Below the pieces are notes generated by a model. It saw only the letters and a list, made by a program, of their open reading frames with translations. It searched no databases and was not told where the DNA came from. The translations under genes and the position numbers were made by a program. 64,000 bases of DNA from Helianthus annuus (Eukaryota > Streptophyta > Magnoliopsida > Asterales > Asteraceae): contig NC_035449.2 in NCBI RefSeq assembly GCF_002127325.2, positions 84,012,100 to 84,076,099 on the forward strand, in the 5' to 3' direction. Below are positions 6,787 through 62,942 of this stretch, in pieces. Within the stretch, counting starts at the first letter, position 1. Each line of letters starts with the position of its first letter.

Positions 6787-8863
6787 GGGTGGTAGATTCA
6801 TTCTTGACGGCCCCCTTATTATCAATGAGGCTTGTTCATGGATTAGAAAGCGGAATAAGAAAGCTTTTCTCTTCAAAATTTACTTCGAAAAGGCTTATGA
6901 CAATATCAATTGGGGTTTTGTGGTGGATATTTTCCGTCAAATGGGCTTTGGCCGGAGGTGGTGTTCTTGGTTGTGGGGTATCCTCGCGTCTGCTCGGGCG
7001 TCGGTTTTGGTGAACAGGGCTTCTACATTCGAATTTAAGTGCGGTAAAGGGATGAGGCATGGGGATCCTATCTCTCCTTTTTTATTCGTTGCAGTAATGG
7101 AGGCGTTGTCTTGTCTTCTCGAAAGAGCTAAGGAGGCGAGTATTTTTTTCTGGTATTCAGCTTTCTAACGGAGGACCTGTTCTCTCCCATTTATTCTTCA
7201 CTGACGATGCGCTTATCATTGGGGAAGGGGAAGAGGATAATGCATTAAATATTGTTAGAATTTTAAGGTGCTTTCACGCCTGCTCAGGCTTGAGAATCAA
7301 CTTGGGAAAGTCTTGCTTGTTCGGGTTAGGGGTTGATGTCGAGGAGGTGGGGAGCCTAGCGGATATTGCTGGTTGTAAGCAAGAATCTTTGCCTTTCAAG
7401 TATCTTGGGCTTAGGGCTGGGTCGAATATGAATCGCATTAATAATTGGGAGCCAGTTATTGAAATCTTCGAGGCTAGACTTGCTCTTTGGAAGTCCAATC
7501 TGCTGTCTATTGGAGGGAGAATGACTCTCATTCGTTCGGTTCTCGAAAGCTTGCCGTCTTATTATTTTTCACTGTACAAGGCTCCTGTTAAGGTGATAAA
7601 GGTTCTCGAGGGTATGATTAAAAAATTCCTTTAGGGAGGATCGGAGGAAGCCCAGAAAACACACTGGGTCGCTTGGGATAGAGTTACGATGCCTAAGAAA
7701 GCTGGAGGGTTGGGTTTAAGTAAGCTCAAAAATATTAATATAGTGCTTTTATGTAAGTGGGGATGGAGATTCAAGAAGGAGAATAACAACCTTTGGGTTA
7801 AAGTGGTGGAGGCAATACACGCCAACGGATCGGGTTGGTCGTTTCTTCCGTTGAAAAAGTCCCTTGGTGGAGTTTGGTCTAGTATTGTGTCTGTTTTTAA
7901 TAGACTGTTTTTAATAGACCAATGGCTGGGCACTCTCAGTTTCGCAACTTCTTTAAGGGTTCAGTTGGGAACGGTGAGAATATCCTTTTCTGGCTAGATC
8001 CTTGGTTGAGGGATGTCCCGTTATTGGAAGTTTTCCCCAATTTATATCTGCTGGAGACTGTCAAGAATTGTTCGGTTAGGGACAGGTTAAGCGGCGATTG
8101 GTTGTGGAAGCATGACCCTATTTTGGACATTGAAAAAATCGAGCTGGAGGCTCTTAATGCGGAGGTAGCGGCTGTTTTGTTGTTGGATAAGCCGGATGAG
8201 TGGAAATGGTTGCCTGACCATTCGGGTGTATTATTCTCTGTTCATTCCGTTAAGAATCTTTTGGATGGTGACGAGGGAAATAATAACAAGTATGTGATTG
8301 ATTGGTGCAAGTGGGTCCCAACAAACTGCAACGTTTTTATTTGGAGAGCGGAATTAAATCGCATCCCAACTGCCGATGCGTTACGGAAGAGGGGTATCCA
8401 GGTTGGCGATGGTTTATGTCCCTTGTGCAAGTCGGTTGACGAATCTGTGGATCACCTTTTCACGTCTTGTGTCGTGGCTGTTATTCTTTGGCAAAAGATC
8501 TCGCGGTGGTGCGGCTTGGCCCCTATCTTTGCTTTTTCTTTCAATGATCTGTTGGATGTTCACAAGCATAGGAGTATTAATGCTGGGATTAAGAGGGTGG
8601 TTCATGGCATAATGTTCATCTCTATTTGGAGTCTGTGGTTGGCCCGCAATAAAGTGGTTTTTTCGAATGCCGATGTAAAGGTTGATAGTATTTTTAGCGA
8701 GGTTAGATCGTTAGGCTTTTTATGGTTTAAACATAGAGGTAAGTGTAGCGTGGTCTCGTGGTCGGATTGGTGTAAATTTGTAAATATGTAGTGTGTTTGT
8801 TTTGATGCCTGTCCCGGTTTTCGAATTCAGGTGTTGTTTAATGAAGTTTTCCTTTAAAAAAAA
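6787..8863 (+). mobile_element. 5'-truncated L1-type LINE (ORF2 3' half)
   Basis: The element starts inside the reverse transcriptase (GGRFILDG) and ends with an 8-base A tail at 8856-8863. It is flanked by TTACCTTCTT (6777-6786) and TTACCTTATT (8864-8873), a 9/10 matching target-site duplication. The frame runs through KIYFEKAYDNINW, GMRHGDPISPFLF and the catalytic motif FFTDDALII, then the thumb, and ends with the zf-RVT type domain (WRAELNRIPTADALRKRG, CPLCKSVDESVDHLF). Breaks: a frameshift in a T run near 7147, an in-frame TAG at 7632, and a frameshift near 7920. The endonuclease and ORF1 are absent. The usual FADD is FTDD here. It is a dead-on-arrival copy. Confidence 0.9.
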
Positions 8864-21088: not shown

Positions 21089-22132
21089 ATGGCTTCTTCA
21101 GCAAAGAGCACTTCAAGTTCAATGCCGACAATCACTTCTTCACAGGGCGTTCCACCTTTGCCTCGAGCACCTTTTGGATCTCAGAAGAATGCTGAGAATG
21201 CTGCGAAGAGTCAGAGCCCCATTTTCCCAAAACCACCATCTTCTTCTGTTTCTTCTAATCCTACTAACAGTGATCTTTTTACTTTGATTTTGCAGATGAG
21301 GGATCACATACAAGAGCAGGACAGAACCAACGAAAGGATCCTCCGGGAGATTGGTGACATTAAGAAACAGAAGAAGTCAGTGGAGGATCACTCTCCATTG
21401 ATGCCCAGATCGCTGAATTTCGACACTCCAGTCATAACCTCCCAGCATTCTGCAGCTCCGGATGTCCAATACCTGGGTGGATTAACAGGAATGCGTTCTG
21501 GATCGTCGGCAATGACTCAAGCTCTAGGATCCTACTTTCAACCTTTAGGATCCTCTGTTCAGCATCAGGGATCCTTCTTCCAGCATCAGGGATCCTTCAC
21601 CAGTTCAGGAGGGTACATGGGGACACAGCCATTTCAAGGATCCTCTCATGTTCAAGGATCCTCTCAGGTTCAAGGATCCTCTCAGGTTCAAGGATTCTCT
21701 CAGGTTCAAGGATCCTCCTTTCAGCCTCAAGGATCCTCATCGTAGGTTTTCGGATCCATGGATTATCCTCCAAGACCCCCATTTACAACACATCAAGGAT
21801 CCAACATCTTTCAGGATCAAGCCTGAAGAAATGTGCAACCTGGAAGTTCAGATGTTCATCAAGGAGACTTCATACCAATGCAGACCATTGCTTCTCCTGG
21901 TCCCTCAATTATACCAGAATCCCGCCAATATGGATTCACATCCGGAATTCCAAACTTGAATCCTCCAGGGGGTAACACTTTGAATAATTATTATACTGCT
22001 AACCATGGCTTCATGCAGGATACAGGTATCAACCAGGCTATGGCTAGGGAACTACAGAAACTGAAGGATATGATATCCAGTGTACCAGGAGTGGTTAAAC
22101 CCATTCCTGAAATTCTAGATGGAAGCCATAAG
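21089..22132 (+). pseudogene. Copy 0 gag, 5' part
   Basis: The frame starts MASSAKSTSSSM, shows the coiled-coil segment LFTLILQMRDHIQEQDRTNE and the GSSQVQGSS repeat region, then meets TAG at 21743. After a frame change it continues with MQDTGINQAMARELQKLKDM. It breaks off after GSHK at 22132, where copy 1 is inserted. The duplicated target ATAAG (22128-22132 and 32897-32901) and the continuation ISRFAP at 32902 prove the break is an insertion. The copy was already dead before or after this by its own stop and frameshift. Confidence 0.9.
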
Positions 22133-22852
22133 TGTTAGGGCTGGATTTTTATAACACATGATCCTTACATGTGATCCTAACCAGTGATCCTTGTTTCTTT
22201 GGCAGATAGTGATCCTCAGCAGAGTTCCAGGATCAGGATCACGGACCATCATAGGGATCCTCATGCTAACAGTTGTTTTCATTGAATTTAATGTTATCTT
22301 GCAGGAATGTCTAGCAGGATCCGCTCTTAGCATCGCAAACAAGGGACGCATCCTTACAACTTTGGCATATGCTTAATCAGAGATGAACGTTGTAGAGGAT
22401 ATGGAAACTCGGCATGACTTAAGGGCGATAATTTAGGCTAGATTTACTTTTATTTCTAAAGGGGGTAATGAGCTGATTGTTAGTCTATTTACCTAAAATA
22501 GGTCACTCACACTTGTATATATAACACTCTTCCCCATTCGGAAGACACACAACACATTTCTCACACGCTTAGACACTCGATACTGTAGTGATCCTTGTAC
22601 TCAGCTCATTATCATCCGAAGTTGTAACCATTTTTTGTTATATTGAAGTTTGGTGATCGGTAGTTGCCATCACCCGAGGTTTTTTATGCCGGAGATCATA
22701 CATTGATCAAGGGCTTTTTCCTCGTATAAATCCTTGTGTCACTTGCATATTTCTTACCAAAGTGATCCTTTACTTTTTCAACAAACCAAGCATCATTCCC
22801 CGTTTACTTAGAGTTTGGTTGCATTATCCTTGTGTGATTTTTGACCAAAACA
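22133..22852 (+). repeat. Copy 1 5' LTR, subfamily A
   Basis: It starts TGTTAGGGCTGGATTTTTAT and ends GACCAAAACA. TATATATAA at 22516-22524 is the likely TATA box, placing transcription start near 22550. The words AGGATCC and GTGATCCT recur many times in U3. Confidence 0.95.
22516..22524 (+). promoter_or_regulatory. LTR TATA box of copy 1
   Basis: TATATATAA in the middle of the LTR, followed about 30 bases later by a CACACAACACA-type start region. The same arrangement is kept in the 3' LTR. Confidence 0.6.
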
Positions 22853-22873: not shown

Positions 22874-22929
22874 AATTGGTGCTTCATTCATAAGAAAACT
22901 TTCTGTTCGAAATCATTTCAAAGAGTTAC

Positions 22930-25554
22930 ATGGCTTCATCATTGAAGAATACATCCACGGCGATGTCTGCAGTCACCTCGTCTCAGAACACTCTGCCTTT
23001 GCCAACACCACCGGCGGGATCTCAGAAAAATGCTGAGAAGAGACCAACTCCTACTTTCTCTAAACCTCCATCTTCTTCTGTTATGAATTCTTCTGCTCCC
23101 AGTACTAGTGATGTATTTACTTTGATTTTGCAGATGAAGGATCGTATGCAGCGGCATGATGAAACTAATGACAGGATCCTTAAGGAAATCGGAGATCTCA
23201 AAAGACAAAAGAAAGCGGCAGAGGATCATTCCCCACTGGTGCCCAAATCTTTGAGTTTTGATACTCCGATGATCACTTCTCAGCCATCAGGAGTCCCAGA
23301 TGTTCAAATTGTGGGAGGATCAAAAGGATTGCACCTCGGATCGGCAATAATGACTCAGGCATCAGGCTCACATTTTCAGCCGGCAGGATCCTATCCTCAG
23401 CATATGGGATCCTTCATGAATTCAGGAGCCTATCCGGGAGCACAGCAGTTTCAAGGATCCTACTTTGTTCCAGGATCATCCCAGGTTCAAGGATCCTCCT
23501 TTGTTCCAGGATCATCCCAGGTTCAAGGATCCTTCTTTGTTCCAGGATCATCCCAGGTTCAAGGATCCTCCTTTGTTCTGGGATCGTCTCAGATACCAGG
23601 ATCCTCCCAGATGCCAGGATCCCTAAAGAGTTTGCAAACAGGAAATCTAGATGTCCATCAAGGGGATTTCATTCCAATGCAGACCATTGCCTCCACTGGT
23701 CCCTCCATCATCCCAGAATCCCAGCCATATGGATTCACACCCAGTATTCCTAACTTGAACCCAATGGGAGGTAACACCTTAAATAATTATCTTACCACTA
23801 ACCATGGATTCGTGCAGGATACAGGTATCAATCATGCTATGGCCAGGGAGTTGCAGAAGCTGAAGGATATGATCTCAAGTGTTCCAGGGGTAGTCAAGCC
23901 TATCCCGGAGATTGCAGATGGAAGCCATAAGGTATCTCGTTTTGCACCACCAATTTGTGATGCAGAGGTACCCAAAAGGTTCCATATCCCTACTATGAAG
24001 CTGTATGATGGTACAACGGATCCTGAGGAGCACATAACACAATACAGGGAGAGGATGGAGATCAATCCAATCCCAGAAAAGTTAAAGGAAGCATGCCTAT
24101 GTAAAGGATTTGGATCCACTCTTACTGGATCAGCTCTTAAATGGCTGCTAAGTCTTCCCCCTTACTCCATCACTTCATTTGCTAATTTAGTTAATTTGTT
24201 CAATAATCAATTCTCTTGTAGTAGAAAATTTGAAAGATTAACTAGTGATTTATATAGGGTAACTCAAAGTCATAATGAATCATTAAGGGATTATATAACT
24301 AAATTCAGTAAAGAATCCTTGGACATTCCCAACTTGGATATGGCCACGGCTGTTGAGGCCTTCAAAATGGGACTGCTTAAGGATTCATTGTTCTATGATG
24401 ATCTTGTTATGACACCGTGCAGGAACCTAGATGAAGTAAGAACTCGGGCACTCAGGTTCATCCGGTTAGAGGATGACAAGAGGATCCAAGAGAGACAAGT
24501 AGGATCCTCAAAACAGGAGAAGCAAGGATCCTCCTTCAAGAGCAATAAATTCAAATCCTACCATAGAAATGACAACCAGAACGTGCATGCAGTTGACCAA
24601 GAAGAGGATGTTGAGGATTATCCTCCGATTTCTGAATATTGTTTTTCTGTTGACAATCATGAACTGATCCTTGCAATGCAGAATCTAGGAGAAAAAGCCA
24701 GGTGGCCCAGAAAGAATGATAAACCATCCGGGACTAAAGACAAGTCAAAGTGGTGTGCATACCTCGAGGATTTCGGGCATCTAACTGAAGAGTGCATCGC
24801 ATTAAGAAAGGAAATTGGATATCTGCTAAGCAAGGGGCATCTAAAAGAGTTGTTGGGAAGAAAAAAGCAAAGGACTCAGGATCCTGAAAGGATCCCTGAA
24901 AAGGCTCCAGCCCCTCCGGCGAATGCACAAGTGATCAACTTTATTTCCGGAGGATCAGACATCTGTGGTACATCCTTCTCAGCGGCTAAAAGGCATGCAA
25001 AGGAAGCAAAAATGGATAATGGAGAAAAACCTATCCGAACATCAAGTATCTCGGAAGGAAATATGATAACATTTGATGAGGATGACCGCATTAACATCCA
25101 GGATCCTCATCATGATAGTTTAGTTATTACTCTATTTATTTCTAACCATTTTGTTCGCAGGATCCTTATCGACGGAGGAAGCTTAGTAAACATTATCCAG
25201 CTTGATGTTCTAAAGAAAATGGGTATCCCGGAATCAGACATCACACCAAGATCCTCCGTGCTTGTGGGATTCAGTGGAGAAACTAAGAAAACTCTGGGGG
25301 ACATCAAACTCCCAATCTACGTGGAAGGATTACATAATTATCAAAAATTTTGTGTTATTGACTGTTTATCTTGTTGTAATGTTATCCTTGGCAGGCCCTG
25401 GATACATGATATGAAAGCAGTCCCATCCACCTACCATCAATGTGTGAAACTCCCTAGCCCATGGGGGATAATCAAGATCGACAGTGATCAGCAGGAGGCC
25501 AAGGATTGTTATACCTCATCCATGAAACCAACCTCGAAGCCAAGGGAGCAATAG
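22930..25554 (+). CDS. Copy 1 gag-protease polyprotein, 874 aa
   Basis: Order of parts: start MASSLKNTSTAMS; coiled coil VFTLILQMKDRMQRHDETND (about 57-100); glycine/serine repeat FVPGSSQVQGSS (about 170-240); capsid-type Retrotrans_gag domain from ISRFAPPICDAE to RALRFIRLEDD (about 335-520); a zinc-finger-like CAYL..FGH..EEC near 600; and protease with LIDGGS in place of DT/SGA near 740, ending NVILGRPW. It ends at a UAG in readthrough context, with pol in the same frame. The zinc ligand His is Leu here (CAYL instead of CAYH in copies 2 and 3), and the protease reads GGSLVNI where sisters have GGSSVNI. Otherwise the frame is intact. Confidence 0.92.
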   Translation: MASSLKNTSTAMSAVTSSQNTLPLPTPPAGSQKNAEKRPTPTFSKPPSSSVMNSSAPSTSDVFTLILQMKDRMQRHDETNDRILKEIGDLKRQKKAAEDHSPLVPKSLSFDTPMITSQPSGVPDVQIVGGSKGLHLGSAIMTQASGSHFQPAGSYPQHMGSFMNSGAYPGAQQFQGSYFVPGSSQVQGSSFVPGSSQVQGSFFVPGSSQVQGSSFVLGSSQIPGSSQMPGSLKSLQTGNLDVHQGDFIPMQTIASTGPSIIPESQPYGFTPSIPNLNPMGGNTLNNYLTTNHGFVQDTGINHAMARELQKLKDMISSVPGVVKPIPEIADGSHKVSRFAPPICDAEVPKRFHIPTMKLYDGTTDPEEHITQYRERMEINPIPEKLKEACLCKGFGSTLTGSALKWLLSLPPYSITSFANLVNLFNNQFSCSRKFERLTSDLYRVTQSHNESLRDYITKFSKESLDIPNLDMATAVEAFKMGLLKDSLFYDDLVMTPCRNLDEVRTRALRFIRLEDDKRIQERQVGSSKQEKQGSSFKSNKFKSYHRNDNQNVHAVDQEEDVEDYPPISEYCFSVDNHELILAMQNLGEKARWPRKNDKPSGTKDKSKWCAYLEDFGHLTEECIALRKEIGYLLSKGHLKELLGRKKQRTQDPERIPEKAPAPPANAQVINFISGGSDICGTSFSAAKRHAKEAKMDNGEKPIRTSSISEGNMITFDEDDRINIQDPHHDSLVITLFISNHFVRRILIDGGSLVNIIQLDVLKKMGIPESDITPRSSVLVGFSGETKKTLGDIKLPIYVEGLHNYQKFCVIDCLSCCNVILGRPWIHDMKAVPSTYHQCVKLPSPWGIIKIDSDQQEAKDCYTSSMKPTSKPREQ
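23461..23580 (+). repeat. 36-bp tandem repeat inside gag
   Basis: Three full units plus partials of TTTGTTCCAGGATCATCCCA + GGTTCAAGGATCCTCC, encoding FVPGSSQVQGSS. The same region varies in number and form in the other copies (18-bp QVQGSS unit at 21640 and 42690, 36-bp unit at 51660). Confidence 0.9.
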
Positions 25555-28877
<3,323 letters not shown>

Positions 28878-29880
28878 ACAGGATCCTTCAAGCATATGAT
28901 CCTTACATTGGAAGCATCCTCGAAGGATCCCGGCGACATCAGTGATCCTTACTCTGGTAAAGTCCTTATCTCAAAACTTTTCCATTTTCTTATTTTTACC
29001 TAAGGATAAGGATCACGTATCCTTCATCCTTCTCTCACGAGAATTTGAGTTCTGATAGTCCAGGTATCCTCAGCATATTATCGATAGTCTTCAAAAGCAT
29101 CTCAGATCCTTGGGTTCAACCCCAGTTATCCTTGGGCTTGTCCCCAGTTTTCGACTGTAGCGCACGATGATCCTGGTATAGTTCACGTCTTTGGGACCTG
29201 TACCCACTTTAGGGGCTGACAACCTCATCGTACTGGCTATATCTAGGATCCTACGTATAATGGTAGACGTACCATACATCCGTTCCTAAGGTTTCTAATG
29301 TTTTCACGTTAGCTAAGGTTTTGACATTTTCATGTCACCAAGTTTGGATAGTCGCCAGTAAGGGCCATACTCCAGTTTACATACGATCCTTGGGCTTGTC
29401 CCCAGTTATCCTTCGGGCTTGTCCCCAGTTATCCTTTGGGCTTGTCCCCAGTGATCCTTTGGGATCATCCCCAGTTATCCTTTGGGCTTGTCCCCAGTTA
29501 CTAACTTATCTTTTATATTGGCCTAGTCCCAAGTTATGTCCTACTTTCCAGGTTTTCGAAGACTAAACTTTTAAGGATCCTTAATCCTTGTTATCCTATT
29601 TCACTTACGATTACCCTGATCAAAGGATAGGATCCTAACTTGGATTCTCAGGTATGATCCTTGACTATACTCATTATTCTGAACAACCTTTACACTTTGA
29701 CAACTAAGCCTATGATCCTTGAAATAGACTACCTTGAAAATTTTCGATTACAGGATATTTGATCTAGGATCATATCCTAAATTTCTTAGACATGATTTGC
29801 TCAACTTTTGTTACTCTAACAAACATGTTTCTAAAACAATTGGAAAATAAGAGGATAAATAAAGGATAACAAAACAAGAT
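28878..29880 (+). repeat. Copy 1 region after pol, with 23-bp tandem repeat
   Basis: Non-coding on both strands. At 29392-29506 a 23-bp unit (GGGCTTGTCCCCAGTTATCC + TTY) is repeated five times. The same array appears inverted at about 50209-50293 (copy 5) and 58990-59118 (copy 4). AGGATCC words are dense. The strand-specific phrase CGCACGATGATCCTGGTATA is conserved in the copies. AT-rich sequence near 29900 is the presumed poly(A) region of the antisense gene. Confidence 0.8.
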
Positions 29881-29936
29881 AAGCCAGAAAGATTAGAGTT
29901 ATTTTATTAACAAAGCCCTTTCAAAAGTTGTCAAAA

Positions 29937-29980
29937 TTGCCAACCCACGTTTCTACCAGCAAAACGTGGCCCGTCCACAT
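29937..29980 (-). ncRNA. Conserved hairpin downstream of the antisense gene (copy 1)
   Basis: TTGCCAAC (29937-29944) pairs with GTTGGCAA (29973-29980), and CCACGTTT/AAACGTGG forms an adjoining inner stem. In copy 4 the outer stem is TTACCTAC/GTAGGTAA: two positions changed on each side with pairing kept. It lies in the presumed 3' UTR of the antisense transcript. Whether it acts on the sense or antisense RNA is open. Confidence 0.6.
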
Positions 29981-30261
29981 GGGTTGGCAAAGGGTGTCCA
30001 TTGTTTATGCGGTCATAGCAGGTGCAGGAAAGTAAAAGCGGCAGGATCACAAAGGCTTCATCCCCCAAACAGAGGATCCCTCCACCATTTGCAATCCTAC
30101 CTATTGTCCAAAGGATCCAGGATCCTCAATCCTAAAACTATTGTTTAAGTTACAGACCATCATTGTTTAAAACATCACAACCACAAAAAACCACTACCAA
30201 ATTTTAAAAAATTGGGCTCCGGCTATGTCTAGAAATTTCCATCATTGCCCAATCCTGCAGC

Positions 30262-31864
30262 TCAAACCTTCGCTGCACCATCACCACCAGCTCCACTTGC
30301 TTCCCCCTGATCCTTGCCAGCATCACCACCTTCAAGCATTGGGATCTCCTCAGCTTCATCATCATCCTCCAGCTCTGCCAACCTTGCCTTCCAGCCCTCC
30401 ACATCCCATGTGCTCTTGTCATAGGCAGGATCCTGAGCCTCCGCAGCCATCTGCAATTGGATCTTATACATAGCTATTGCGGCAGAGACCTTGGCATCCT
30501 GGGTGATCTCCTGCTTCTCACAATCCATGTTGATCAGCATTTGAGCAGCTTCATCCTTGGTAGCCCGGAGTTCCTTCTCAAGATCAGCTATCTTGAGATC
30601 CTTCAGCACGCCCATTTGTTGGAGGTCGGCGATTTGGCGGTCCTAATCCTCAACATGGCCAAGGTAGGTCTCTATTTCAGCAAGTTTCTGCAGAAAGGGA
30701 AAGAGGTAAGTTCAGGACCAGGTGATCCTCAAACAAGCAGGATATACGAGCAGAATACACAAGCAAGAGCAATGATCCTTACTTCATTAACATAATCAAG
30801 AAACTGTTGGCGGAGCATGGGAAATCCTTGAAGATCCTCAGAAGCCTTTCTCTTCTTTCCCTTACCCCTAATGGGTGCTTTAGGGGCTGAAGCAGATGGA
30901 CTAGCAGCAGGGTTCTTCTTCCTTGTAGACTTGACGTTAGCAAGATCATCAATACCAAACTTGGAGGCAGACTTGACAGATTTCCTAGCGCCTACACAAT
31001 CAAAATAAGATAAGAACTCTAACTAATTTAAAAATCTTACATAGAACTACTTTTTAAATGAGGATACTTACTTGACATTGTGGCAGATGCGGAGGATACT
31101 TCCTGTGAATCTTGAATGGCAACTTGAAAACTTCTGGTCTCAGGATCAAGCTTTTTGAAGGCTAGAACTCTCTCTCTTGCAGCAGGAGTCAACTTGAGAT
31201 GAGCAACAGATATGGCTGCACAAAAAACAGAATATTAGTGATCCTCGCCTTAAGGAACAAGTCTGATGGTGATCCTTCCAGGATCCTCTATCCTACCATG
31301 AGTAGCCCACTCCTTGGGCAGATCCTTCCCATTAGGGATGGTATCCATCCTAACAAAGAAGAATCGTCGCTTCTAATTCATGTCATTTTTGGTGACCTTA
31401 AGAACAGGGTGATCCTCTCTGGCTTTCCGTTTGAGCAAATATCGACAGGATCCAAACGTTGTGAGATCATACAGCTCAGCCAGCTCCGCCATCCCTAAGT
31501 CAATCCCCTCCTGCTCAATGATCCTTTCATGGGTATACAAAACCCTCCAGATCATCGGCATGGCTTGGATGTAAGATATGCCGGTCAGGGAAAAGAAAGG
31601 TTGGGTGAAAGCTGGAAAGGGATACGTATAGCCTATGGTGAACAGAGTAACAGGAAAAGCTACCCAAGAATCGGAGACAAAGTCACTTAAAGCAGTGGGA
31701 GTGAAAGATTTAAAGATAGTATTCGCCGGAAAACAATGACGAATTCTATCAATATGAACATCGGTGAAACAACACCTCTCATGGGGAGAATCCTTGATGA
31801 TCCCTTGACCCTTCAAGGGACTGTTCTTTTTAGGATCCTTATGAGGGGAGTTGCGTAGCAGCAT
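30262..31864 (-). pseudogene. Antisense four-exon gene of copy 1 (two stops)
   Basis: Exons on the minus strand: 31864-31297, 31215-31072, 30991-30783, 30687-30262, all with GT..AG borders and the same phases as in copies 4 and 5. The protein has about 448 codons. The N-terminal ~190 residues (CCFTDVHIDRIRHCF, YIQAMPMIWRVLYTHERIIE, EGIDLGMAELAELYDLTTFG) resemble the Pfam putative gypsy-type transposon domain (PF04195, from memory). Then come a basic RGKGKKRKA patch (NLS-like), a coiled coil (IADLEKELRATKDEA) and an acidic tail. A Trp codon near 31375 is TAG and a Gln codon in exon 4 (near 30643) is TAG, so this copy is not functional. Extra antisense frames are known in Tat elements. Confidence 0.85.
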
Positions 31865-32013
31865 GCTTGCAGAATGTTGAAGAAAAACAAAGAAGCAGAA
31901 AAACAGAGTAAGAGAAGGAAGAAGGAAGAAGAGAGATACCTGATTGATCTTCGGACGAGATTATAAAGGGAGTTTCTTTGATTTTAAATGCGAATTGATC
32001 CTATCTCTATCTC

Positions 32014-32088
32014 CTATTTATAATGATGATCTGCAGGGCTGTCACTTCTGTGACGTAAGAATCACAACGGCTAGTCCGACTCCAACGG
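32014..32088 (-). promoter_or_regulatory. Promoter of the antisense gene (copy 1)
   Basis: On the minus strand, upstream to downstream: CCGTT at 32088-32084 (as TCCAACGGCTA on the plus strand, a full match to the mitosis-specific MSA consensus YCYAACGGYYA), a second AACGG at 32066-32070, TTACGTCA (32058-32051), GTGACA (32045-32040) and TATAAATAG (32022-32014). The ATG is about 150 bases further on. The same order and spacing recur in copies 4 and 5. Confidence 0.65.
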
Positions 32089-32177
32089 CTAGTTATCCGA
32101 TTAGCTCGTTGCAGATAAGATCAAGCAAAATATAACTCATTTATTTACAATATCACTCCTTATATTTTAGGGGCAAT

Positions 32178-32896
32178 TGTTAGGGCTGGATTTTTATAAC
32201 ACATGATCCTTACATGTGATCCTAACCAGTGATCCTTGTTTCTTTGGCAGATAGTGATCCTCAGCAGAGTTCCAGGATCAGGATCACGGACCATCATAGG
32301 GATCCTCATGCTAACAGTTGTTTTCATTGAATTTAATGTTATCTTGCAGGAATGTCTAGCAGGATCCGCTCTTAGCATCGCAAACAAGGGACGCGTCTTT
32401 ACAACTTTGGCATATGCTTAATCAGAGATGAACGTTGTAGAGGATATGGAAACTCGGCATGACTTAAGGGCGATAATTTAGGCTAGATTTACTTTTATTT
32501 CTAAAGGGGTAATGAGCTGATTGTTAGTCTATTTACCTAAAATAGGTCACTCACACTTGTATATATAACACTCTTCCCCATTCGGAAGACACACAACACA
32601 TTTCTCACACGCTTAGACACTCGATACTGTAGTGATCCTTGTACTCAGCTCATTATCATCCGAAGTTGTAACCATTTTTTGTTATATTGAAGTTTGGTGA
32701 TCGGTAGTTGCCATCACCCGAGGTTTTTTATGCCGGAGATCATACATTGATCAAGGGCTTTTTCCTCGTATAAATCCTTGTGTCACTTGCATATTTCTTA
32801 CCAAAGTGATCCTTTACTTTTTCAACAAACCAAGCATCATTCCCCGTTTACTTAGAGTTTGGTTGCATTATCCTTGTGTGATTTTTGACCAAAACA
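32178..32896 (+). repeat. Copy 1 3' LTR
   Basis: Nearly identical to the 5' LTR. It is preceded by the polypurine tract TTTTAGGGGCAAT and followed by the target duplicate ATAAG and the copy 0 gag codons ISRFAP. Confidence 0.95.
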
Positions 32897-32901
32897 ATAA
32901 G

Positions 32902-35775: not shown

Positions 35776-35825
35776 TACTAGATTCTCTTATCAGTCATTT
35801 GTCTTGAAATTTGTGCCATTTGATT

Positions 35826-37205
35826 ATGGATACCGAATTTTACAACGCGTTTGCAACATCGTCGTCACCAGCTGCGATTGCTCAAGCCATGAATTTAGAA
35901 AACGAGACGGGAACGACTCAAAAGCCACCTAGATTGATGAGCATTGAGGAGTATTATGGGTGGAAGGACCGGTTTGAAAACTGGGTTCAGGCAAATCATC
36001 TCAGATCGTGGGAGTGCATATTGAAGAAGTACACATTGCCTCGAACAGATTTGCAAGTTGTTAAAGAGATATCCGAATTTACCGATCAAGAACGAGCAAT
36101 GTATAGAGCCGAGAAAATGATGATCAGTTTGTTGCAGCAGGCTATAAAGGAAGATATATTCATCTTGTTACAACACGACAAAACTGCTAAGTCGATATGG
36201 GATGCTCTTAAGGTTAAATTCGAGGGAAGTGAAAACATGATCAAGAGCAAGAAAGCACTGTTAAAGAAAGAATTCGATTTGTTTAGTAGTTTGCCGGGAG
36301 AGGATACTAAAAAGCTAATCGAAAGATACTGTCATTTGGTGCGATCGTTATCGATGTTGGGAGTTGAAAAAGGTCGTGAGGAATGGGTGGATAAATTGGC
36401 TGACGCGTTACCTCAGAAAGAGTGGGGAACGTATTTGATGATTTTAAAGAATACTGGTGTGTATGATGGGCTGACAATTTCACAGTTCATTGAGAAAATT
36501 GAGAGTCAGGATCTTGAACAGCAAAAGATCGCAAGAATGAACAGTCCGAGTGGTCAACAGGACGTGAAGATGTACTACCGGGGTAGTGTTCCAGTCGCTG
36601 AGTCTGAAAGAAGTCCGAAGATTCAAACTGCGTTCAGTGCTGGTGATTCATCTGACAAAGCTGATCAGGGTTCGAACAGGAGTAGCAACGGGTTTTCATC
36701 ATTTCCGAGTGTGAATCCGAAAGAGACTAACACGAGTTTTCAGTCTCAGAGTACAAAAACCGGAAATGGATACATAATTCAATGTAACATAACTCTTAAT
36801 CTTCCAGAAGGTCAAAGCTTCTCTAAAGACACTGCTAAAGATCACATGGCACTTCTGGGTTTAGTTCTGTTATCCTATGAAGGTCTTGTTGCTGGTCGGA
36901 TCGGAAATCCTATGCTCACCAAAGAGGATTACGATCAAATAGACGCTGAAGAAATGGAACTCATGGATATTAAATGGTGTCTTGCTAGTGTTCTTCGACG
37001 AGCTGAGAAATTCAAAACCATTACCGGGAGAAATGACTTTCTTGATGCACATGTCTCTACTTTAGGTTTTGATAAATCTAAAGTTACTTGTTTTCGATGC
37101 AGGGAGAAAGGTCATTTCAAGCGGGAGTGCAAGGGAAGAGAAGCTAGCGGAGCACAGAATCCATTCGGGAAAGATGATTACTATCGCAAAGCTATCTATC
37201 AGTAA
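35826..37205 (+). CDS. Gag of the gag-only element, first part (UBN2-like plus zinc knuckle)
   Basis: ATG at 35826 (MDTEFYNAF) is preferred over upstream non-ATG codons because C1 gag starts the same way. The frame shows KPPRLMSIEEYYGWKDRFEN, a helical UBN2-type body (LLQHDKTAKSIWDALKVKFE, CHLVRSLSMLGVEKGREEWV) and a CCHC zinc knuckle CFRCREKGHFKREC near residue 425. It ends at TAA 37203. A second TAA is at 37212. Both look like CAA codons changed by C to T, and the frame then continues to 39812. So this is probably the N-terminal third of one ~1330-codon gag. Confidence 0.8.
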   Translation: MDTEFYNAFATSSSPAAIAQAMNLENETGTTQKPPRLMSIEEYYGWKDRFENWVQANHLRSWECILKKYTLPRTDLQVVKEISEFTDQERAMYRAEKMMISLLQQAIKEDIFILLQHDKTAKSIWDALKVKFEGSENMIKSKKALLKKEFDLFSSLPGEDTKKLIERYCHLVRSLSMLGVEKGREEWVDKLADALPQKEWGTYLMILKNTGVYDGLTISQFIEKIESQDLEQQKIARMNSPSGQQDVKMYYRGSVPVAESERSPKIQTAFSAGDSSDKADQGSNRSSNGFSSFPSVNPKETNTSFQSQSTKTGNGYIIQCNITLNLPEGQSFSKDTAKDHMALLGLVLLSYEGLVAGRIGNPMLTKEDYDQIDAEEMELMDIKWCLASVLRRAEKFKTITGRNDFLDAHVSTLGFDKSKVTCFRCREKGHFKRECKGREASGAQNPFGKDDYYRKAIYQ

Positions 37206-37212
37206 GTTGGTT

Positions 37213-39812
37213 AATCCCAAGAACCGCAGACAGCTCACGGGAGAAAGATTGAAGATCCGAAGAGAGCATGTTTGGTAGATTTCAGCTGGAGTAATTACAT
37301 AACATCTGAAGCCACAGCAGCACACATTATCGATCAAGATGATGAGAAACTACCAGAAGGTTTCAGTTGGGATATGTTTGTGGATGAGAAGGGAGAGTTT
37401 AAAGCTTTCATTGCCAAGATCGTCCGAGAGCCAGATTTGTTTGCTACTTGGATGAGATCAATTGGAGAGACTGTGAAAAGTGAAGATGAAAAGTCTGTGA
37501 CATCTGATGAAAGTTCAGACAGTACTGATAAACTTTCAGAAATTTCTGGGGAAGTTTCAGAAAGTTCAGACGAAGGTTTACAGGGTTCAGATGAAGATTT
37601 ACAGAGTTCTGATAAAAGTGTACAAAATGAAAATGTTCAAGAAAAAGAAGTTGTTTTTGATAAAACACCGACTGATTCTGATGTATCTGATGGTGATTCT
37701 GATAAGTCTGTAAAATTTGATCAATCACCAGATCACAGCAGTAGTGATGATGAGGAAGAAAAACACATAAATATTGCAAAAACTCATTTTTCACCTGAAA
37801 GTTTTCATTTCTATTTTGCAGAAAGAATGGAGAAACTGAAGGAGAAACGAGCTGCTAAAGAACAACAATCCAAATCTGAAGGTGATATTCAAAATGCTGA
37901 GAATGTTGCTGAGAAGATTACCGAGGTTGTGAAAAAAGAAGAAAAGGTGATCGAAGATGAAAAGGTGGTTGAAGTTGTTAAAACAATCGAAGTTGAGAAG
38001 ATTGTTGAAGTCGTCAAGCCGTGTGAAAAGTGCTTGGAAGCTTGCAAGGATTGTGCAGCTAAAGACGACATCATAACTGAGTACGAGAAGAAGAAGGAGC
38101 AGTTACTGTTCAACCTCAATTATGTGAAAGAATCATACGATGTCTTGAACAAAACAGTAACGGGTCTCCAAACTACAAACTCAGAAAGAGAACAGGCACT
38201 GACAATGATGAATGCAACTTTGATGTCAAAACAAAAGGCGATCAATTTCTACATTGAAGAGAGTGCCAAGTGGAAGCAAGAGTTGGAGATGGAAAAGATC
38301 GAGAATGAGAGAATTAGACGGTTTTTGCAAAGTTATTCTAGTTCTGATTATCTCATTGACCGTATTTACCCAACTGTTGCAGGTATGGAAGCTTTCAAAG
38401 ATGAGAAGCTGAAAGAGAAGAAAGACTGTGGTAAGAAATCGACTGTTAGTTACAACAAATGTCCGCCTCCGATTTGGGATGGTTATTCACCTAGGAGACC
38501 AAATGAGGAGCAATTGGAAAAGGCAGTCAATATAAAGCTTAAAACCGACACAACTGACGTTTTACCAGATAATATTGATGTCACGTATACCTCGTCCGAT
38601 ACTGATCATGAGTCTGAATTAATCAAAAAGGTGGTCGATCAGGTGTTGGATAATGATGCGGAGTCTGAGTCGAAATCTGGGTCTGGAAAGTCAAAGTCGT
38701 CAGTCAACAGTCCAAATTCGTCGGATAAACGGTCTTATAGTAAAGAATTTTTATTGTCAAAGGCAGATTTGAATGATGAAACATTCGAAGTTGTGTATAC
38801 TTTGAATGGTTCGGACAAATTATATTACAATAAAGAGTTCCCAATAATGAGTATTAAAACGGAACTAATAAACAAAACTTTCAAACTTATCGAAGTTAAT
38901 ATTCCAGAATTAAAAGTTTTGAAAAGTTTTGAAAAATCTAAAAAATATACATCTAGAGTTCAGCAACGTTTAAATAAGAAAAAGGGCAACAATTCTGGGT
39001 CTGGTTTTCAAAAGAAACCTAACCAGAATCGTAGCTATAAAAAGAAAGGCCTTGGTTTTGTTCCACCAGAAAATGATAAAAATATGAAAAATTCTAAAAC
39101 AAAATCTGAATTTGTGTCAGGTGGAAGTGCTGAGGAGGAACAGCAGAAACCGTTCTGGAGACAGTCTAATGAAGATTTCCTTGCTGAGAGAAAGAAGAAT
39201 GGAACTGATATATGTTATCTGAGAGAGACTAGAACCTGTTATAGATGCAATGAAGCTGGTCACATTGCATGGAATTGCTCAAAAGATGTCCAATCAAAAC
39301 AGGGAGTTTCTCAGAAGTTGAAAGAGAAAGTTGTTGATGTTGACACACCAACCAATAGACCTAAAATTTTTGAGAATTCAAAATTCGAGGTTGGTGAATG
39401 TTCAAAGAAGAACCAATATGAAAAGAAAGGAAAAGACAACCAGGTGTGGGTTGCGAAGAAAGGTGAAGTGAATGTCGACGAGGAATCTGGTTCCACAAAG
39501 CCAGAAGAGCCACAGGTTGAGGAGAAAATTTCAGTGAATGATGAGGAGTTTCCATCATTGAAGTTTGAAGAAGTGAAAAAGAAAGTTGGAAAAACTAAGA
39601 TTTCGAATCAGTTCTACAAAGAAAAGAATGATTTTGATGTTGAGAAAACATTCAACGGGAATGTTAAAAAGATATTTGGGAAAATGTTGAGTGGGAGAGC
39701 TAAAGGGGTAAAAGATTTTTACGCGACTAAAAAGGCAACATACAACCCGACTGCTCAAGAGCTGAAAGCCATCAAGTCTGAGAAGACTTGGATGGAAGTC
39801 TGCTTCCCATGA
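37213..39812 (+). CDS. Gag of the gag-only element, second part (coiled coil, second zinc knuckle)
   Basis: In frame with the first part. After the two TAA codons the frame reads SQEPQTAHGRKIEDPKRAC, an acidic Ser/Glu-rich stretch (about residues 60-160 of this part), long coiled coils rich in EVVK/EKIVEVVK and NLNYVKESYDVL, a conserved CPPPIWDGYSPRRP motif, a basic KKGNNSGSG segment, a second zinc knuckle CYRCNEAGHIAWNC near residue 660, and the end ELKAIKSEKTWMEVCFP. No protease, integrase or RT signature follows. If the upstream stops are real it has no good ATG of its own near the start. The function is structural by inference. Confidence 0.7.
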
Positions 39813-42448: not shown

Positions 42449-44809
42449 ATTCCCCATTGATGCCCAGATCTTTGAATTTCGATACTCTGGTTATGACCTC
42501 TCAGCCTTCAGTAGTTCTAGACGTTCAATACGTGGGAGGACCAAAAGGAGTGCACTACGGATCATCAGCAATGGCTCAGGCTTCGGGATCATACTTCCAA
42601 CCAGCAGGATCCCTTCCTCAGCATATAGGATCCTTCGCTAGCTCAGGAGGATACTTGGGAGCGCAACAGATACAAGGGTTCTGGCCGTTTCAAGGATCCT
42701 CGCAGGTTCAAGGATCCTCTCAGGTTTAAGGATCCTCGCAGGTTCAAGGATCCTCGCAGGTTCAAGGATCCTCTCAGGTTCAAGGATCCTCTCAGGTCCA
42801 AGGATCCTCTCAGGTCAAAGGATCCTCTCATGTTCAAGGATCCTCTCAGTTTCATGGATCCTTCCAGATTCCGGGATCCTTAAGTAGTTTGCAACCAGGG
42901 AATTCAGATATCCATCAAGGAGATTTCATTCCAATGCAGACCATTGCTTCTACTGGTCCTTCAATCATTCCAGAGTCTCAACAATATGGATTCACATCCG
43001 ATGTTCCTAATTTAAACCCAATGGGAGGTAACACTTTCAATAATTCTTATACCACTAACCATGGCCTTATGCAGGATACAGGTATCAATCATGCCATGGC
43101 TAGAGAATTGAAAAAGTTGAAGGATATGATATCAAGTGTTCCAGGAGTGGTCAAGCCTATCCCGGAGATTGCAGATGGGAGCCATAAGATATCTCGTTTT
43201 GCACCACCCATCTGTGATGCTGAGATACCCAAGAGGTTCCACGTGCCAACCATGAAGTTATATGATGGCTCAACGGATCCTGAAGAACACATAGCACAAT
43301 TCAGGGAAAGGATGGAGATCAATCCCATCCCAGAAAGGTTAAAGGAAGCATGTCTGTGCAAGGGATTTGGATCCACCCTTACTGGATCGGCTCTTAAATG
43401 GCTGCTAAGTCTTCCCCCTTACTCTATTACCTCGTTTGCTAATCTAGTTAACCTGTTTAATAATCAGTTTTCTTGTAGTAGAAAATTTGAGCGTTTAACT
43501 AGTGATCTATATAGGATAACCCAAGGTCATAATGAATCATTAAGAGATTATATCACTAAGTTTAGTAAAGAATCCTTGGATATCCCTAACCTAGATATTG
43601 CTACGGCTGTTGAAGCCTTTAAAATGGGACTGCTTAGGAATTCATTATTCTATGATGATCTTGTTATGACACCTTGCAGGAATCTAGATGAAGTAAGAAC
43701 CCGGGCCCTTAGGTTCATCCGGCTAGAGGATGACAAAAGGATCCAGGAAAGATTAGCAGGATCCTCAAAGCAAGAGAAGCAAGGATCCTCATTCAGGAAC
43801 AACAAGTTCAGATCCTACAACAAATCTGATAACCAGAATGTGCATGCTGTAGAACAGGAAGAGGATGATGAGGATTATCCCTCGATTTCTGAATACTGTT
43901 TTTCTGTTGATAACAACGAACTAATCCTTGCGATGCAGAATCTAGGTGATAAAGCCAGGTGGCCGAGAAAAAATGACAAACCAGCTGCAACTAAAGATAA
44001 ATCAAAATGGTGTGCATACCACGAAGATTTTGGTCACCTCAGAAGAGTGTATCGCATTGAGAAAAGAAATTGGATACTTGTTGAGCAAGGGGCACTTGAA
44101 AGAATTATTGGGGAGAAAGAAGTCTAGAACTCAGGATCCTGAAAGGATCCCAGAGAAAGCTCCAGCCCCTCCAGCAGACGCACAAGTTATAAACTTTATA
44201 TCTGGAGGATCAGACATTTGTGGAACATCCTTTTCTGCAGCTAAAAGACATGCAAAGGAAACCAAGATGGATAATGGAGATAGACCCATTCGAACATCCA
44301 GTGTCACCAAAGGAAAAATCATAACTTTTGATGAGGATGATCGTGTTGACATTCAGGATGCTCATCACGATGGTTTGGTTATCACTCTTTTTATTTCTAA
44401 CCATTTTGTTCGCAGGATCCTTATAGACGGAGGCAGCTCTGTGAATATCATCCAGCTTGATGTTCTTAAGAAAATGAATATTCCTGAATCCGATATCATA
44501 CCGAGATCCTCAGTGCTTATGGGATTCAGTGGCGAGACTAAGAATACTCTGGGGGATATTAAACTCCCAATCTATATTGAAGGGCTACATTTTTACCAAA
44601 AATTTTATGTTATTGATTGTTTATCTTGTTGTAACGTTATCCTTGGCAGGCCTTGGATACACGACATGAAGGCAGTCCCATCCACTTATCATCAATGTGT
44701 GAAGCTTCCTAGCCCTTGGGGGATAGTGAAGATTGATAGTGATCAGCAGGAGGCTAAGAACTGCTACACCTCGTCAATGAAACCAGCCTCAAAGTCAAGG
44801 GAGCAATAG
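42449..44809 (+). pseudogene. Copy 2 gag-protease, C-terminal part, broken
   Basis: Resumes with LMPRSLNFDT. The 18-bp QVQGSS repeat array runs from 42690 to 42850, with 13 GGATCC sites between 42601 and 42900. A C to T change makes TAA at 42727. The capsid domain (ISRFAPPICDAEIPKRFHV) is intact. A two-base loss near 44040 in the zinc-finger segment (CAYHEDFGHL) shifts the frame to a stop at 44127, and the rest (EECIALRKEIGYLLSKG, protease LIDGGSSVNI) reads in another frame to the UAG at 44807. The UAG context is CAA-TAG-CAA-TCA. Confidence 0.9.
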
Positions 44810-46468
44810 CAATCAAAGCATCCTCCGAGAGATGTCTTGGAGGCAAGAGAGCAGGATGTAGTAGAAACCCTTATGGATCCTCATGATCCTGACTCTAAAG
44901 TTTACATAGGATCAGGGATCCTTGGCGAAATGAAAGAAGACCTAGTATCCTTCCTCAAAAGGAGAAAGACTACCTTTGAATGGAAACACGAAGATATCAC
45001 AGGTATATCTAAAGATATAATCACTCACAAACTTGGCATTGACAGGTCGTTCAAACCAATCCATCAAAAGAGGAGGAAGTTTGCACCAGAAAGAAATGCC
45101 ATTATTCAGGAAGAGGTAGAAAAGTTACTCCGAGCAGGTATGATTAGGGAGGTCAAGTATCCAAGATGGTTGGCCAATGTGGTTGTAGTTCAAAAGAAAA
45201 AAGGAAAGTGGAGGGTATGTGTCGATTTTACAGATTTAATAAGGCATGTCCTAAGGATCCTTTCCCATTACCCCACATTGACTCCATGGTGGATGCAACC
45301 GCGGGTCATGAACTGTTAACTTTTATGGATGCTTCATCTGGATTTCAGCAAATTCAGATGGAACCATCTGATCAAGAGGATACAGCTTTTATGACTCCAG
45401 CTGGTATATACTGTTATATTACTATGCCGTTTGGACTAAGAAATGCAGGTGCAACTTATCAAAGGCTGGTAAATATGATGTTCAACGATCAGATTGGACA
45501 CACTATGGAAGTTTATATAGACGACATGGTGGTTAAATCTAAAAAGGCTGAGGATCACCTGAGAGACTTGGAGGAAGCATTCAATATCCTTGACAAATAT
45601 AATATGAAACTTAATCCTTCAAAGTGTCACTTTGGTGTTAAAGCAGGTAAATTCTTAGGGTATATGGTGACAAAGAGAGGCATTGAAGCCAGTCCAGAGC
45701 AGATCAAAGCTATAATAAACATCAAATCCCCTGCCAACGCTAAGGATGTTCAGAGGCTAACAGGCAGGATTGCAGCTTTAAACAGATTCATATCCAAATC
45801 CTCAGAGAAATGTAAAGAGTTCTATGATATCTTGAGGAAGAACTACTAACTTTTGTGACAGCTGGGGGATTAAGATGATAACATCAACACCAGTCCACCC
45901 ACAAGCTAATGGTTAGGCAGAATCATCCAATAAGATCATCATCAACAATTTGAAGAAGAAGCTTGGATCCAAGAAAGGAAAATGGGCAGAAGAACTACCT
46001 TATGTGCTTTGGGCTGATAGGACAACTCCTAAGAATGCTACAGGCCAAACTCCATTTTCTTTGGTATTTGGGGCAGAATCAGTGATCCCTACAGAGATGG
46101 TGGTTCCAACTGCAAGAACAAGTATTCGTGATCCTGAAGAAAATGATGAGAACTTAGTTCAAGACCTGGATACTATAGAAGAAATCAGGGATTTGGCAAG
46201 AATAAGGATGGCCAGTTATCAGCAGAGGATGGCTGGAGCCTACAACAAAAATGTCAGGATCAGGAAGTTCCAAGTTGGTGACATGGTACTAAGGAAAGCA
46301 TTTCAGAATACCACCAATCCTGCTGATGGAAAGTTGGCACCAAAGTTGGAAGGTCCTTACTTGATTGAAGCTGAGGCAGGAAAAGGGGCATATCGATTGC
46401 TAACAATGGAAGGTGATTTGCTACCTAGAGCCTGGAATGTTGTCCATTTGAAGAAATACTTCATGTGA
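44810..46468 (+). pseudogene. Copy 2 pol with internal deletion
   Basis: The RT frame is shifted by a one-base loss near 45236 (VDFTDL|NKACPKD). The rest of RT (LTFMDASSGF, YIDD) is present to 45842. There the sequence jumps from the RT-RNase H linker (FYDILRKN) to late integrase (TTNFCDSWGIKM), removing the RNase H, aRNH and the first half of integrase. The junction keeps AGAAC, present at both parental sites, so a microhomology deletion is likely. The Gln codon in ANGQAES is TAG (45914). Integrase C-terminus runs to TGA 46468. Confidence 0.9.
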
Positions 46469-51164: not shown

Positions 51165-53756
51165 ATGGCTTCGTCGTTGAGGAATACCTCCACAGCGATG
51201 TCGGCAGTCAATTCATCTACTGGCATTCCACCTTTGCCTCCACCACCAGCCGGATCTCAGAAAAATGCTGAGAAGAGACCAACTTCTATATCCTCTAAAC
51301 CATCATCTTCTGCTCTAACTTCTTCTGTTCCCAGTACTAGTGATATATTTACTTTGATTTTGCAGATGAGGGATCGTATGCAGCAGCAGGATGAAACTAA
51401 TGACAGGATCCTCAGAGAAATCGGAGATCTCAAAAGACAAAAGAAAACGACAGAGGATCATTCCCCACTGATGCCCAAATCTTTGAATTTTGATACTCCA
51501 ATGATTACTTCTCAGCCATCAGAGGTCCCAGACATTCAATATGTGGGTGGATCAAGAGGAATGCATTTCGGCCCAGCAGCAGTGACTCAGGCATCAGGAT
51601 CATATTTCCAACCGGCAGGATCCTATACTCAACATATGGGATCCTTCATGAACTCAGGATCCTCCTTCGTTCCAGGATCATCTCAGGTTCAAGGATCCTC
51701 CTTCGTCCCAGGATTATCCCAGGTTCAAGAATTCTCCTTCGTCCCAGGATCATCCCAGGTTCAAGGATCATCCTTCGTTCCAGGATCATCCCAGGTTCAA
51801 GGATCCTCCATCGTTCCAGGATCATCCCAGGTTCAAGGATCCCTTCAGATACAAGGATCCTTGAAGAATTTGCAAACAGGAAGTCTAGATGTCCATCAAG
51901 GAGATTTTATTCCAATGCAGACCATTGCTTCCACTGGTCCATCCATTATCCTAGAATCCCAGCAATATGGATTCACACCCAATGTTCCTAACTTGAACCC
52001 GATGGGAGGTAACACTTTTAATAATTCTCTTACCACTAACCATGGATTCATGCAGGATACAGGTATCAATCATGCTATGGCCAGAGAACTACAAAAACTG
52101 AAGGATATGATATCAAGTGTTCCAGGGGTAGTCAAACCTATCCCGGAGATTGCAGATGGAAGCCATAAGGTATCTCGTTTTGCACCACCAATTTGTGATG
52201 CTGAGATACCCAAAAGGTTCCATATCCCTACTATGAAGCTGTATGATGGTACAACGGATCCCGAGGAACACATAGCACAATACAGGGAGAGGATGGAGAT
52301 CAATCCAATTCCAGAAAAGTTAAAGGAAGCATGCTTATGCAAAGGATTTGGATCCACTCTTACTGGATCAGCTCTTAAATGGCTGCTAAGTCTTCCCCCT
52401 TACTCTATTACTTCATTTGCTAATTTAGTTAATTTATTCAATAATCAATTCTCTTGTAGTAGAAAGTTTGAAAGATTGACTAGTGATTTATATAGGGTAA
52501 CTCAGGGTCATAATGAATCATTAAGGGATTACATAACCAAGTTTAGTAAAGAATCCTTGGATATTCCTAACTTGGATATGGCCATAGCTGTTGAGGCCTT
52601 CAAGATGGGATTGCTTAAGGATTCATTGTTCTATGATGATCTTGTTATGACACCATGCAGGAACCTAGATGAAGTAAGAACTCGGGCACTCAGGTTCATC
52701 CGGCTAGAGGATGACAAGAGGATCCAGGAAAGACAAGCAGGATCCTCAAAGCAAGAAAAGCAAGGATCCTCTTTCAAAAGCAACAGATTCAAATCCTACA
52801 ATAGGAATGACAACCAGAACGTGCATGCCGTTGACCAAGAAGAGGATGATGAGGATTATCCTCCGATTTCTGAATATTGTTTTTCCGTTGATAATCATGA
52901 ACTAATCCTTGCAATGCAGAATCTAGGAGAAAAAGCCAGATGGCCCAGAAAAAACGACAAGCCAACTGGAATTAAAGACAAATCGAAGTGGTGTGCATAC
53001 CACGAGGATTTCGGGCATTTAACTGAAGAATGCATCGCATTAAGAAAGGAAATTGGATATCTGCTAAGCAAGGGGCATCTAAAAGAGTTGTTGGGAAGAA
53101 AAAAGCAAAGGACTCGGGATCCTGAGAGGATCCCTGAGAAAGCTCCAGCTCCTCCGGCAGATGCACAAGTAATCAACTTTATTTCTGGAGGATCAGACAT
53201 ATGTGATACATCCTTCTCGGCAGCTAAAAGGCATGCAAAGGAAGCTAAAATGGATAACGGAGAAAGACCTATTCGAACATCAAGTGTCTCGGAAGGAAAA
53301 GTTATAACCTTTGATGAGGATGATAGAATTAACATCCAGGATCCTCATCATGATAGTCTAGTTATCACTCTCTTTATCTCTAACCATTTTGTCCGCAGGA
53401 TCCTTATTGACGGAGGAAGCTCAGTAAATATTATCCAGCTTGATGTTCTGAAGAAGATGGGTATTCCTGAATCAGATATCACACCAAGATCCTCCGTACT
53501 TGACATCAAACTCCCAATTTATGTGGAAGGATTACATAATTATCAAAAATTTTGTGTTATTGACTGTTTGTCTTGTTGTAATGTTATCCTTGGCAGACCC
53601 TGGATACATGATATGAAGGCAGTCCCATCCACCTACCATCAATGTGTGAAGCTCCCTAGCCCATGGGGAATAATCAAGATCGACAGTGATCAGCAGGAGG
53701 CTAAGGATTGTTACACCTCGTCAATGAAACCAGCCTCGAAGCCAAGGGAGCAATAG
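51165..53756 (+). CDS. Copy 3 gag-protease, 863 aa, open
   Basis: ATG at 51165 (MASSLRNTSTAMS) matches the sister copies, so eight codons further upstream are not used. Coiled coil, then a five-unit FVPGSSQVQGSS array (51660-51840), capsid domain, and the zinc-finger-like CAYHEDFGHLTEEC with all ligands. Protease carries RILIDGGSSVNI. Twelve residues after SSVL (VGFSGETKKTLG in copy 1) are missing by an in-frame 36-base loss, which removes the region between active site and flap and probably inactivates protease. Ends at UAG 53754 in CAA-TAG-CAA-TTA. Confidence 0.92.
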   Translation: MASSLRNTSTAMSAVNSSTGIPPLPPPPAGSQKNAEKRPTSISSKPSSSALTSSVPSTSDIFTLILQMRDRMQQQDETNDRILREIGDLKRQKKTTEDHSPLMPKSLNFDTPMITSQPSEVPDIQYVGGSRGMHFGPAAVTQASGSYFQPAGSYTQHMGSFMNSGSSFVPGSSQVQGSSFVPGLSQVQEFSFVPGSSQVQGSSFVPGSSQVQGSSIVPGSSQVQGSLQIQGSLKNLQTGSLDVHQGDFIPMQTIASTGPSIILESQQYGFTPNVPNLNPMGGNTFNNSLTTNHGFMQDTGINHAMARELQKLKDMISSVPGVVKPIPEIADGSHKVSRFAPPICDAEIPKRFHIPTMKLYDGTTDPEEHIAQYRERMEINPIPEKLKEACLCKGFGSTLTGSALKWLLSLPPYSITSFANLVNLFNNQFSCSRKFERLTSDLYRVTQGHNESLRDYITKFSKESLDIPNLDMAIAVEAFKMGLLKDSLFYDDLVMTPCRNLDEVRTRALRFIRLEDDKRIQERQAGSSKQEKQGSSFKSNRFKSYNRNDNQNVHAVDQEEDDEDYPPISEYCFSVDNHELILAMQNLGEKARWPRKNDKPTGIKDKSKWCAYHEDFGHLTEECIALRKEIGYLLSKGHLKELLGRKKQRTRDPERIPEKAPAPPADAQVINFISGGSDICDTSFSAAKRHAKEAKMDNGERPIRTSSVSEGKVITFDEDDRINIQDPHHDSLVITLFISNHFVRRILIDGGSSVNIIQLDVLKKMGIPESDITPRSSVLDIKLPIYVEGLHNYQKFCVIDCLSCCNVILGRPWIHDMKAVPSTYHQCVKLPSPWGIIKIDSDQQEAKDCYTSSMKPASKPREQ

Positions 53757-59636: not shown

Positions 59637-62942
<3,306 letters not shown>

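Follow-up and report, generated by a model that had tools for sequence, protein, structure and literature searches.

What keeps a stop codon in the middle of the coding region of a retrotransposon? In a 64-kb stretch of the sunflower genome, here called the window, CAATAGCAAYYA occurs at 25549, 44804 and 53751 on the plus strand and at 62948-62937 on the minus strand, three times as CAATAGCAATTA and once, at 44804, as CAATAGCAATCA. In all four copies the C-terminus of a protease precedes the TAG and reverse transcriptase (RT) follows it in the same frame. The original prediction of gag-protease and RT split by a single UAG, with three UUA sites and one UCA site, was thus confirmed in every window copy. 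The 12-mer count (4 against 0.02 expected) is no test by itself because the copies are homologous; they differ by 5-14%, and with only four copies at such distances a single difference within the 12-mer says little about constraint.

The element carrying the site at 25549

The first copy lies on the plus strand in an element flanked by a perfectly repeated 5-bp target site duplication (TSD), ATAAG, at 22128-22132 and 32897-32901. Its 5' LTR (22133-22852, 720 bp) and 3' LTR (32178-32896, 719 bp) are 99.4% identical and enclose an internal region of 9325 bp. The gag-protease ORF, 886 aa from stop to stop (22894-25554), contains a gag domain (PF03732) and ends with the TAG at 25552-25554. No Pfam match to a protease domain was found in this ORF, and the name comes from relatives annotated as gag/aspartic peptidase. 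The N-terminal part of gag holds an array of 36-bp tandem repeats (23446-23607). The site itself, CAA-UAG-CAA-UUA, spans 25549-25560, with the conserved core UAG-CAA-UUA at 25552-25560. In the gag-protease frame follows the pol ORF (25555-27744), which encodes RT, RNase H and a second RNase H (RVT_3); Pfam spans in pol are 127-286 for RVT_1, 350-475 for RNaseH and 525-643 for RVT_3, with integrase afterwards. The pol frame of this copy is disrupted between about 27603 and 27744, and the remaining pol, including integrase, is in a different frame (27603-28877).

The second copy (44804-44815, +; CAA-UAG-CAA-UCA) lies in a degraded element. The third (53751-53762, +; CAA-UAG-CAA-UUA) resembles the first until near 55644. 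The fourth (62937-62948, -; CAA-UAG-CAA-UUA) has a pol ORF of 1101 aa open over 59637-62942, and a one-base gap farther upstream disrupts its protease frame. Antisense to this copy, ORFs at 56546-57244 and 57493-58206 (+) in the interval between pol and LTR have Pfam matches at chance level (E<=10).

Probable assignment to the Retand clade

The original prediction placed the family in the Tat lineage (Ty3/gypsy). Domain order and lengths narrow this down, agreeing with membership in its Retand clade. A second RNase H (aRH) between RH and INT is given as the mark of Ogre and Retand (PMC6317226). The order gag-PR-RT-RH-INT with aRH between RH and INT is found here, the protease having no Pfam match, and the stretch between pol and 3' LTR (28878-32177) measures 3.3 kb, within the 2.9-6.6 kb of the long region characteristic of Retand. 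Three ORFs, two of them the antisense ORFs (>=200 aa) of the minus-strand copy, were scanned for TRP28 (PF04195), and none gave a match at E<=10. Its absence does not exclude Retand, because H. annuus 4 and 5 are named in the available text of PMC11963269 as the only exceptions to an antisense TRP28 ORF in the clade. These two clusters have LTRs of 719-720 bp, internal regions of 9310-9313 bp and pol-to-3' LTR distances of 3327-3343 bp (PMC11963269), and the element described here is alike, with 720/719 bp, 9325 bp and about 3.3 kb, respectively, and no TRP28 found. By this fit in size, the family appears to be already catalogued as Helianthus annuus clusters 4/5. A two-ORF organisation is mentioned in the available text of the same source, without readthrough or its context.

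The sister clade Ogre shares the division into gag-pro and RT-RH-INT and the position of aRH, but its two ORFs are separated by a spacer averaging 274 bp, an intron that is spliced from part of the transcripts (PMC6317226). As originally predicted, no such spacer was found between the gag-pro and RT ORFs of the sunflower element, which abut at the UAG.

Conservation of UAG-CAR-YYA in two diverged families

The sunflower genome was screened with a 10-residue protease motif located about 160 nt upstream of the stop and therefore blind to it. The probe matched exactly at 4527 + 4426 places (8,953 in total), and its reversed control at none. The first 100 places, all on one contig (C1), were taken as a sample; one (L063), with other sequence past the motif, was excluded. 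TAG was kept in all 99 alignable copies and UAG-CAR-YYA in 96, the three exceptions having AAA after UAG, although these counts are not independent, the copies being related by descent. The tobamovirus-type context proposed originally, a type I readthrough signal of UAG and CARYYA, was upheld.

Two families were present, family 1 with 83 copies and family 2 with 16. They share 70% nucleotide and 73% amino-acid identity, and their modal codons differ at 34 of 46 fourfold sites, i.e. synonymous divergence is saturated; UAG-CAA-UUA is nevertheless common to both, so that the hexamer has been kept while neighbouring synonymous sites vary, as had been predicted. Identity of UAG-CAA-UUA between the families is not in itself unique, since nine of the 203 3-codon windows, this one included, are identical. 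On a FastTree tree built from the same piece, with changes assigned by parsimony, codons -1 to +3 form the sole run of five third positions free of internal-branch change among 200 windows, 31 of 205 third positions being unchanged overall. The only hexamer changes on internal branches are between UUA and UCA, both of which are allowed. One copy (L047) has CAG in the hexamer, and another (L128) has CUA, the latter a biased case retrieved by the 12-mer pattern itself.

The complete 12-mer, the unit that the original prediction held to be kept, was present at about the expected position in 78 of the 100 sampled places; the other 22 are the excluded place, the 16 copies of family 2 and five copies with a changed codon beside UAG. 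We rejected it as the kept unit, since codon -1 differs in family 2 (GCA in 12 of 16 copies). The conserved unit is UAG-CAR-YYA, 9 nt long, without the preceding CAA.

Third positions show an excess of change on both sides of the stop, weakly in codons +4 to +10, and both sides are therefore translated in that frame.

Losses of the stop codon

A protein search with a protease-RT piece from Centaurea gave 18,368 candidates, of which 150 were scored and their stops counted; a few of these places overlap the first sample, the ranking may favour stop-less copies, and the position of the TAG was read only in the pieces examined in sequence. Among these 150 of 18,368, at least one TAG was present in 142, TAA only in one and no stop in seven, and no TGA was listed. 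Eleven of the 150 were read in sequence. Three of these, on three contigs (L157, L158 and L159), have a deletion of the same size, 48 nt between short repeats, which removes UAG and hexamer and joins both ORFs in frame, through one or several events. Other losses comprise another deletion and three point substitutions that yield codons for Trp, Lys and Tyr; a further place (L166) has UAA-CAA-UUA, and three with shorter spacing retain UAG-CAA-UUA.

A third probe, the motif with E for D, matched 18 places, and the 12 that were read belong by eye to the two families or near variants. TAG-CAA-TYA is kept in 10 of the 12, interrupted in one, and has TTG for TAG in one (L151, in which CAA-TTA is retained). 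Downstream of the hexamer, L151, L154 and L155 seem to represent an additional variant within the family. Another 17 places drawn from the 12-mer list comprised nine in the family and eight chance matches without the protein. The stop can thus be lost, and in these samples losses are few and of several kinds. Young copies without UAG, or lacking CAR-YYA as often as other codons change, had been named originally as speaking against readthrough. Copies without UAG, of whatever age, do exist (7 of 150 and L151), and individual copies thus tolerate a fused ORF; they are few, and none occurs in the stop-blind sample.

RNA structure downstream of the UAG

The original prediction had missed a stem-loop that starts 10-12 nt past the stop. 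In family 1 it is a 9-bp hairpin beginning 12 nt past the UAG, and 77 of 83 copies retain standard pairing throughout the stem; at the first window site it reads CCUCCAAGG AAUG UCUUGGAGG (25567-25588, +) and is a candidate stimulator. In family 2 a long stem-loop of unrelated sequence begins 10 nt past the UAG.

Compared with dinucleotide shuffles, the 100 nt after UAG averaged -2.1 over 16 of the 83 copies of family 1 and -4.9 over all 16 of family 2. When synonymous codons were resampled for the same protein (10 of 83 copies of family 1 and 10 of 16 of family 2), windows at the UAG were the lowest-scoring of 12 in family 2, with z values of -4.2 and -4.4. In family 1 they gave -1.9 and -1.7, so that its hairpin is only modestly more stable than the controls, and a window just upstream of the UAG (-2.0) equals them. 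The structure of family 2 thus goes beyond what codon controls yield. Standard pairs occupy 98.9% of its 464 pair cells, and helix 1 is paired in 303 of 304 cells. Sliding lowers the former share to 29-46%, although this control is biased in favour of a structure derived from the very sequences tested. Two pairs of the family 2 structure have changed on both sides, a number matched in 25 of 500 shuffles; the hairpin of family 1 shows one-sided changes only, and in two copies with a piece shorter by 36 nt (L160 and L161) reading found the UAG kept and the hairpin end altered. A stem-loop is well supported in family 2 and suggestive in family 1, and may serve as a helper of readthrough.

Probable readthrough and alternative explanations

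Programmed readthrough of the UAG is very probably the best explanation for the kept stop, a prediction made from sequence comparison. Most ribosomes would terminate at the UAG and release Gag-protease; a minority, given the CAR-YYA that follows, would insert an amino acid, presumably tyrosine as at the UAG of TMV, and go on to Gag-Pro-RT-RH-INT. The excess of Gag over Pol would then be set in a single frame, without intron or frameshift, and the stem-loop 10-12 nt downstream would probably assist. The occurrence and rate of readthrough, the residue inserted and the part played by the stem-loop are what we infer from these features and from known systems.

In plants, the TMV context allows 32% readthrough in transient and 6-10% in stable assays and the BNYVV context 11%; changing the C after the TMV stop to G abolishes readthrough, and tyrosine is the residue inserted at the UAG (all from PMC2754532). 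The site studied here shares with that of TMV the UAG followed by CAA-UYA, a plant host and, in family 1, a CAA as the codon preceding the stop. It differs in belonging to a chromosomal LTR retrotransposon, in its position at the protease/RT junction, in the 3' stem-loop and in that its readthrough is a prediction. Gag-pol of murine leukaemia virus (MuLV) is a comparable case, a retroelement stop that is read through and has a 3' RNA structure; its stop is located before the protease. The MuLV structure is a pseudoknot (PMC4132726).

As of 2009 all experimentally verified cases of readthrough in plants were viral, and the rice gypsy-type element RIRE2 (Ohtsubo 1999) is cited as a candidate (PMC2754532). 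RIRE2, a monocot element that we compare through the papers citing it, is listed under Retand (PMC6317226) and thus has in common with the sunflower element both this listing and its candidacy as a gypsy-type readthrough system. Neither this class of mechanism nor its proposal for the lineage is therefore new. The original view that the family was undescribed appears not to hold, given its apparent cataloguing (PMC11963269) and the proposal for RIRE2, but no description of UAG-CARYYA in Retand elements was found in the passages of open-access papers that were searched. What appears to be new is the evidence that the signal is under selection and recurs in a second, diverged family, together with the stem-loops and the breadth.

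An intron that removes the UAG from some transcripts and joins protease to RT is unlikely, even though the sister clade Ogre uses one (PMC6317226). The UAG and the next MAG are possible 3' splice sites, with the AG at +1 and +10 kept in both families; two upstream GTs are conserved, and predicted proteins of some relatives (Mikania P0010) omit the region, as a modelled intron would. However, the abutting ORFs leave no spacer, and only 6% of the 25 nt upstream of the UAG are U in family 1 and 16% in family 2, plant splice acceptors being U-rich. Moreover, the third-position excess from codon +11 onward (weak in +4 to +10) would be unexpected in a region spliced out or untranslated, and hexamer variation stays within CAR-YYA; codon +3 is AAG in 52 of 99 copies.

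Less likely still is a UAG that arose by chance in an ancestral master copy and was simply inherited. Copies within a family are close, so retention within families says little and the four window copies cannot decide; yet two synonymously saturated families have both kept UAG-CAA-UUA while the surrounding codons turned over, and losses by deletion and by differing point changes occur but are few in the samples. Equally improbable is separate production of Pol after the UAG by re-initiation or internal entry, for which an AUG at codon +63 is available in 83/83 and 16/16 copies, but nearer AUGs are unshared (+4 in 9/16 of family 2 and 0/83 of family 1; +41 in 72/83 of family 1 and 0/16 of family 2), codons +11 to +50 show coding constraint, and the hexamer would be left unexplained.

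Programmed readthrough, if true, would also account for annotations that divide such elements into two genes or leave out parts at the stop. In a chromosomal element whose protease motif has 8,953 matches in one genome, selection maintains a readthrough signal already known in plants, and the family offers a cheap and directly testable system in which natural losses of the stop are ready-made controls.

Breadth in other plants

Among 100 predicted proteins with a GRPW-like motif and a tail of <140 aa (P0121-P0279, many from the same species), 77 gag-protease tails from eudicots end 46-52 residues past the motif. They come from Asteraceae, Caryophyllales, Salvia, Cannabis, Humulus, Acer, Xanthoceras, Tripterygium, Brassicaceae and Cuscuta, and at least one (P0275) terminates there in apparently another frame; as these are protein figures, they show neither which stop nor which hexamer is present. 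Weighing against such breadth, many pol relatives are annotated as a single gag and RT protein (for example in Centaurea, Daucus, Arabidopsis hybrids and Fagus), an unsorted mix of real single ORFs and/or modelled introns. Proteins of Daucus and Apium continue into RT without visible gap, and a Smallanthus protein (P0046) has, by eye, Tyr at the position of the stop. According to PMC11963269, gag and pol form one ORF in 59% of clusters, and the values of 29% for monocots and 83% for eudicots given there we take to be the share with two ORFs.

We see about an even chance that Retand elements across eudicots set their Gag-Pro/Pol ratio by tobamovirus-type UAG readthrough with lineage-specific 3' stem-loops, in which case plant genomes would hold thousands of working cassettes, and plant viruses and plant retroelements would have converged on one signal.

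A search for nucleotide sequence from other plant species found no relative in viral contigs and, in genome contigs, 19 distant loci in bacterial and archaeal assemblies. The one that was read (L109) has 40% identity and no stop between protease and RT; it is probably contamination, since it is a single-ORF gypsy-type polyprotein on a contig labelled Streptomyces clavifer.

Other features of the window

At 35808-39812 the window contains a copia-type gag ORF (PF14223) and an 865-aa ORF with weak zinc-knuckle similarity, both in one frame, with two stops lying a few codons apart between them. Finally, an ORF with a zf-RVT domain (PF13966) at 7904-8791 is probably a LINE-type remnant.
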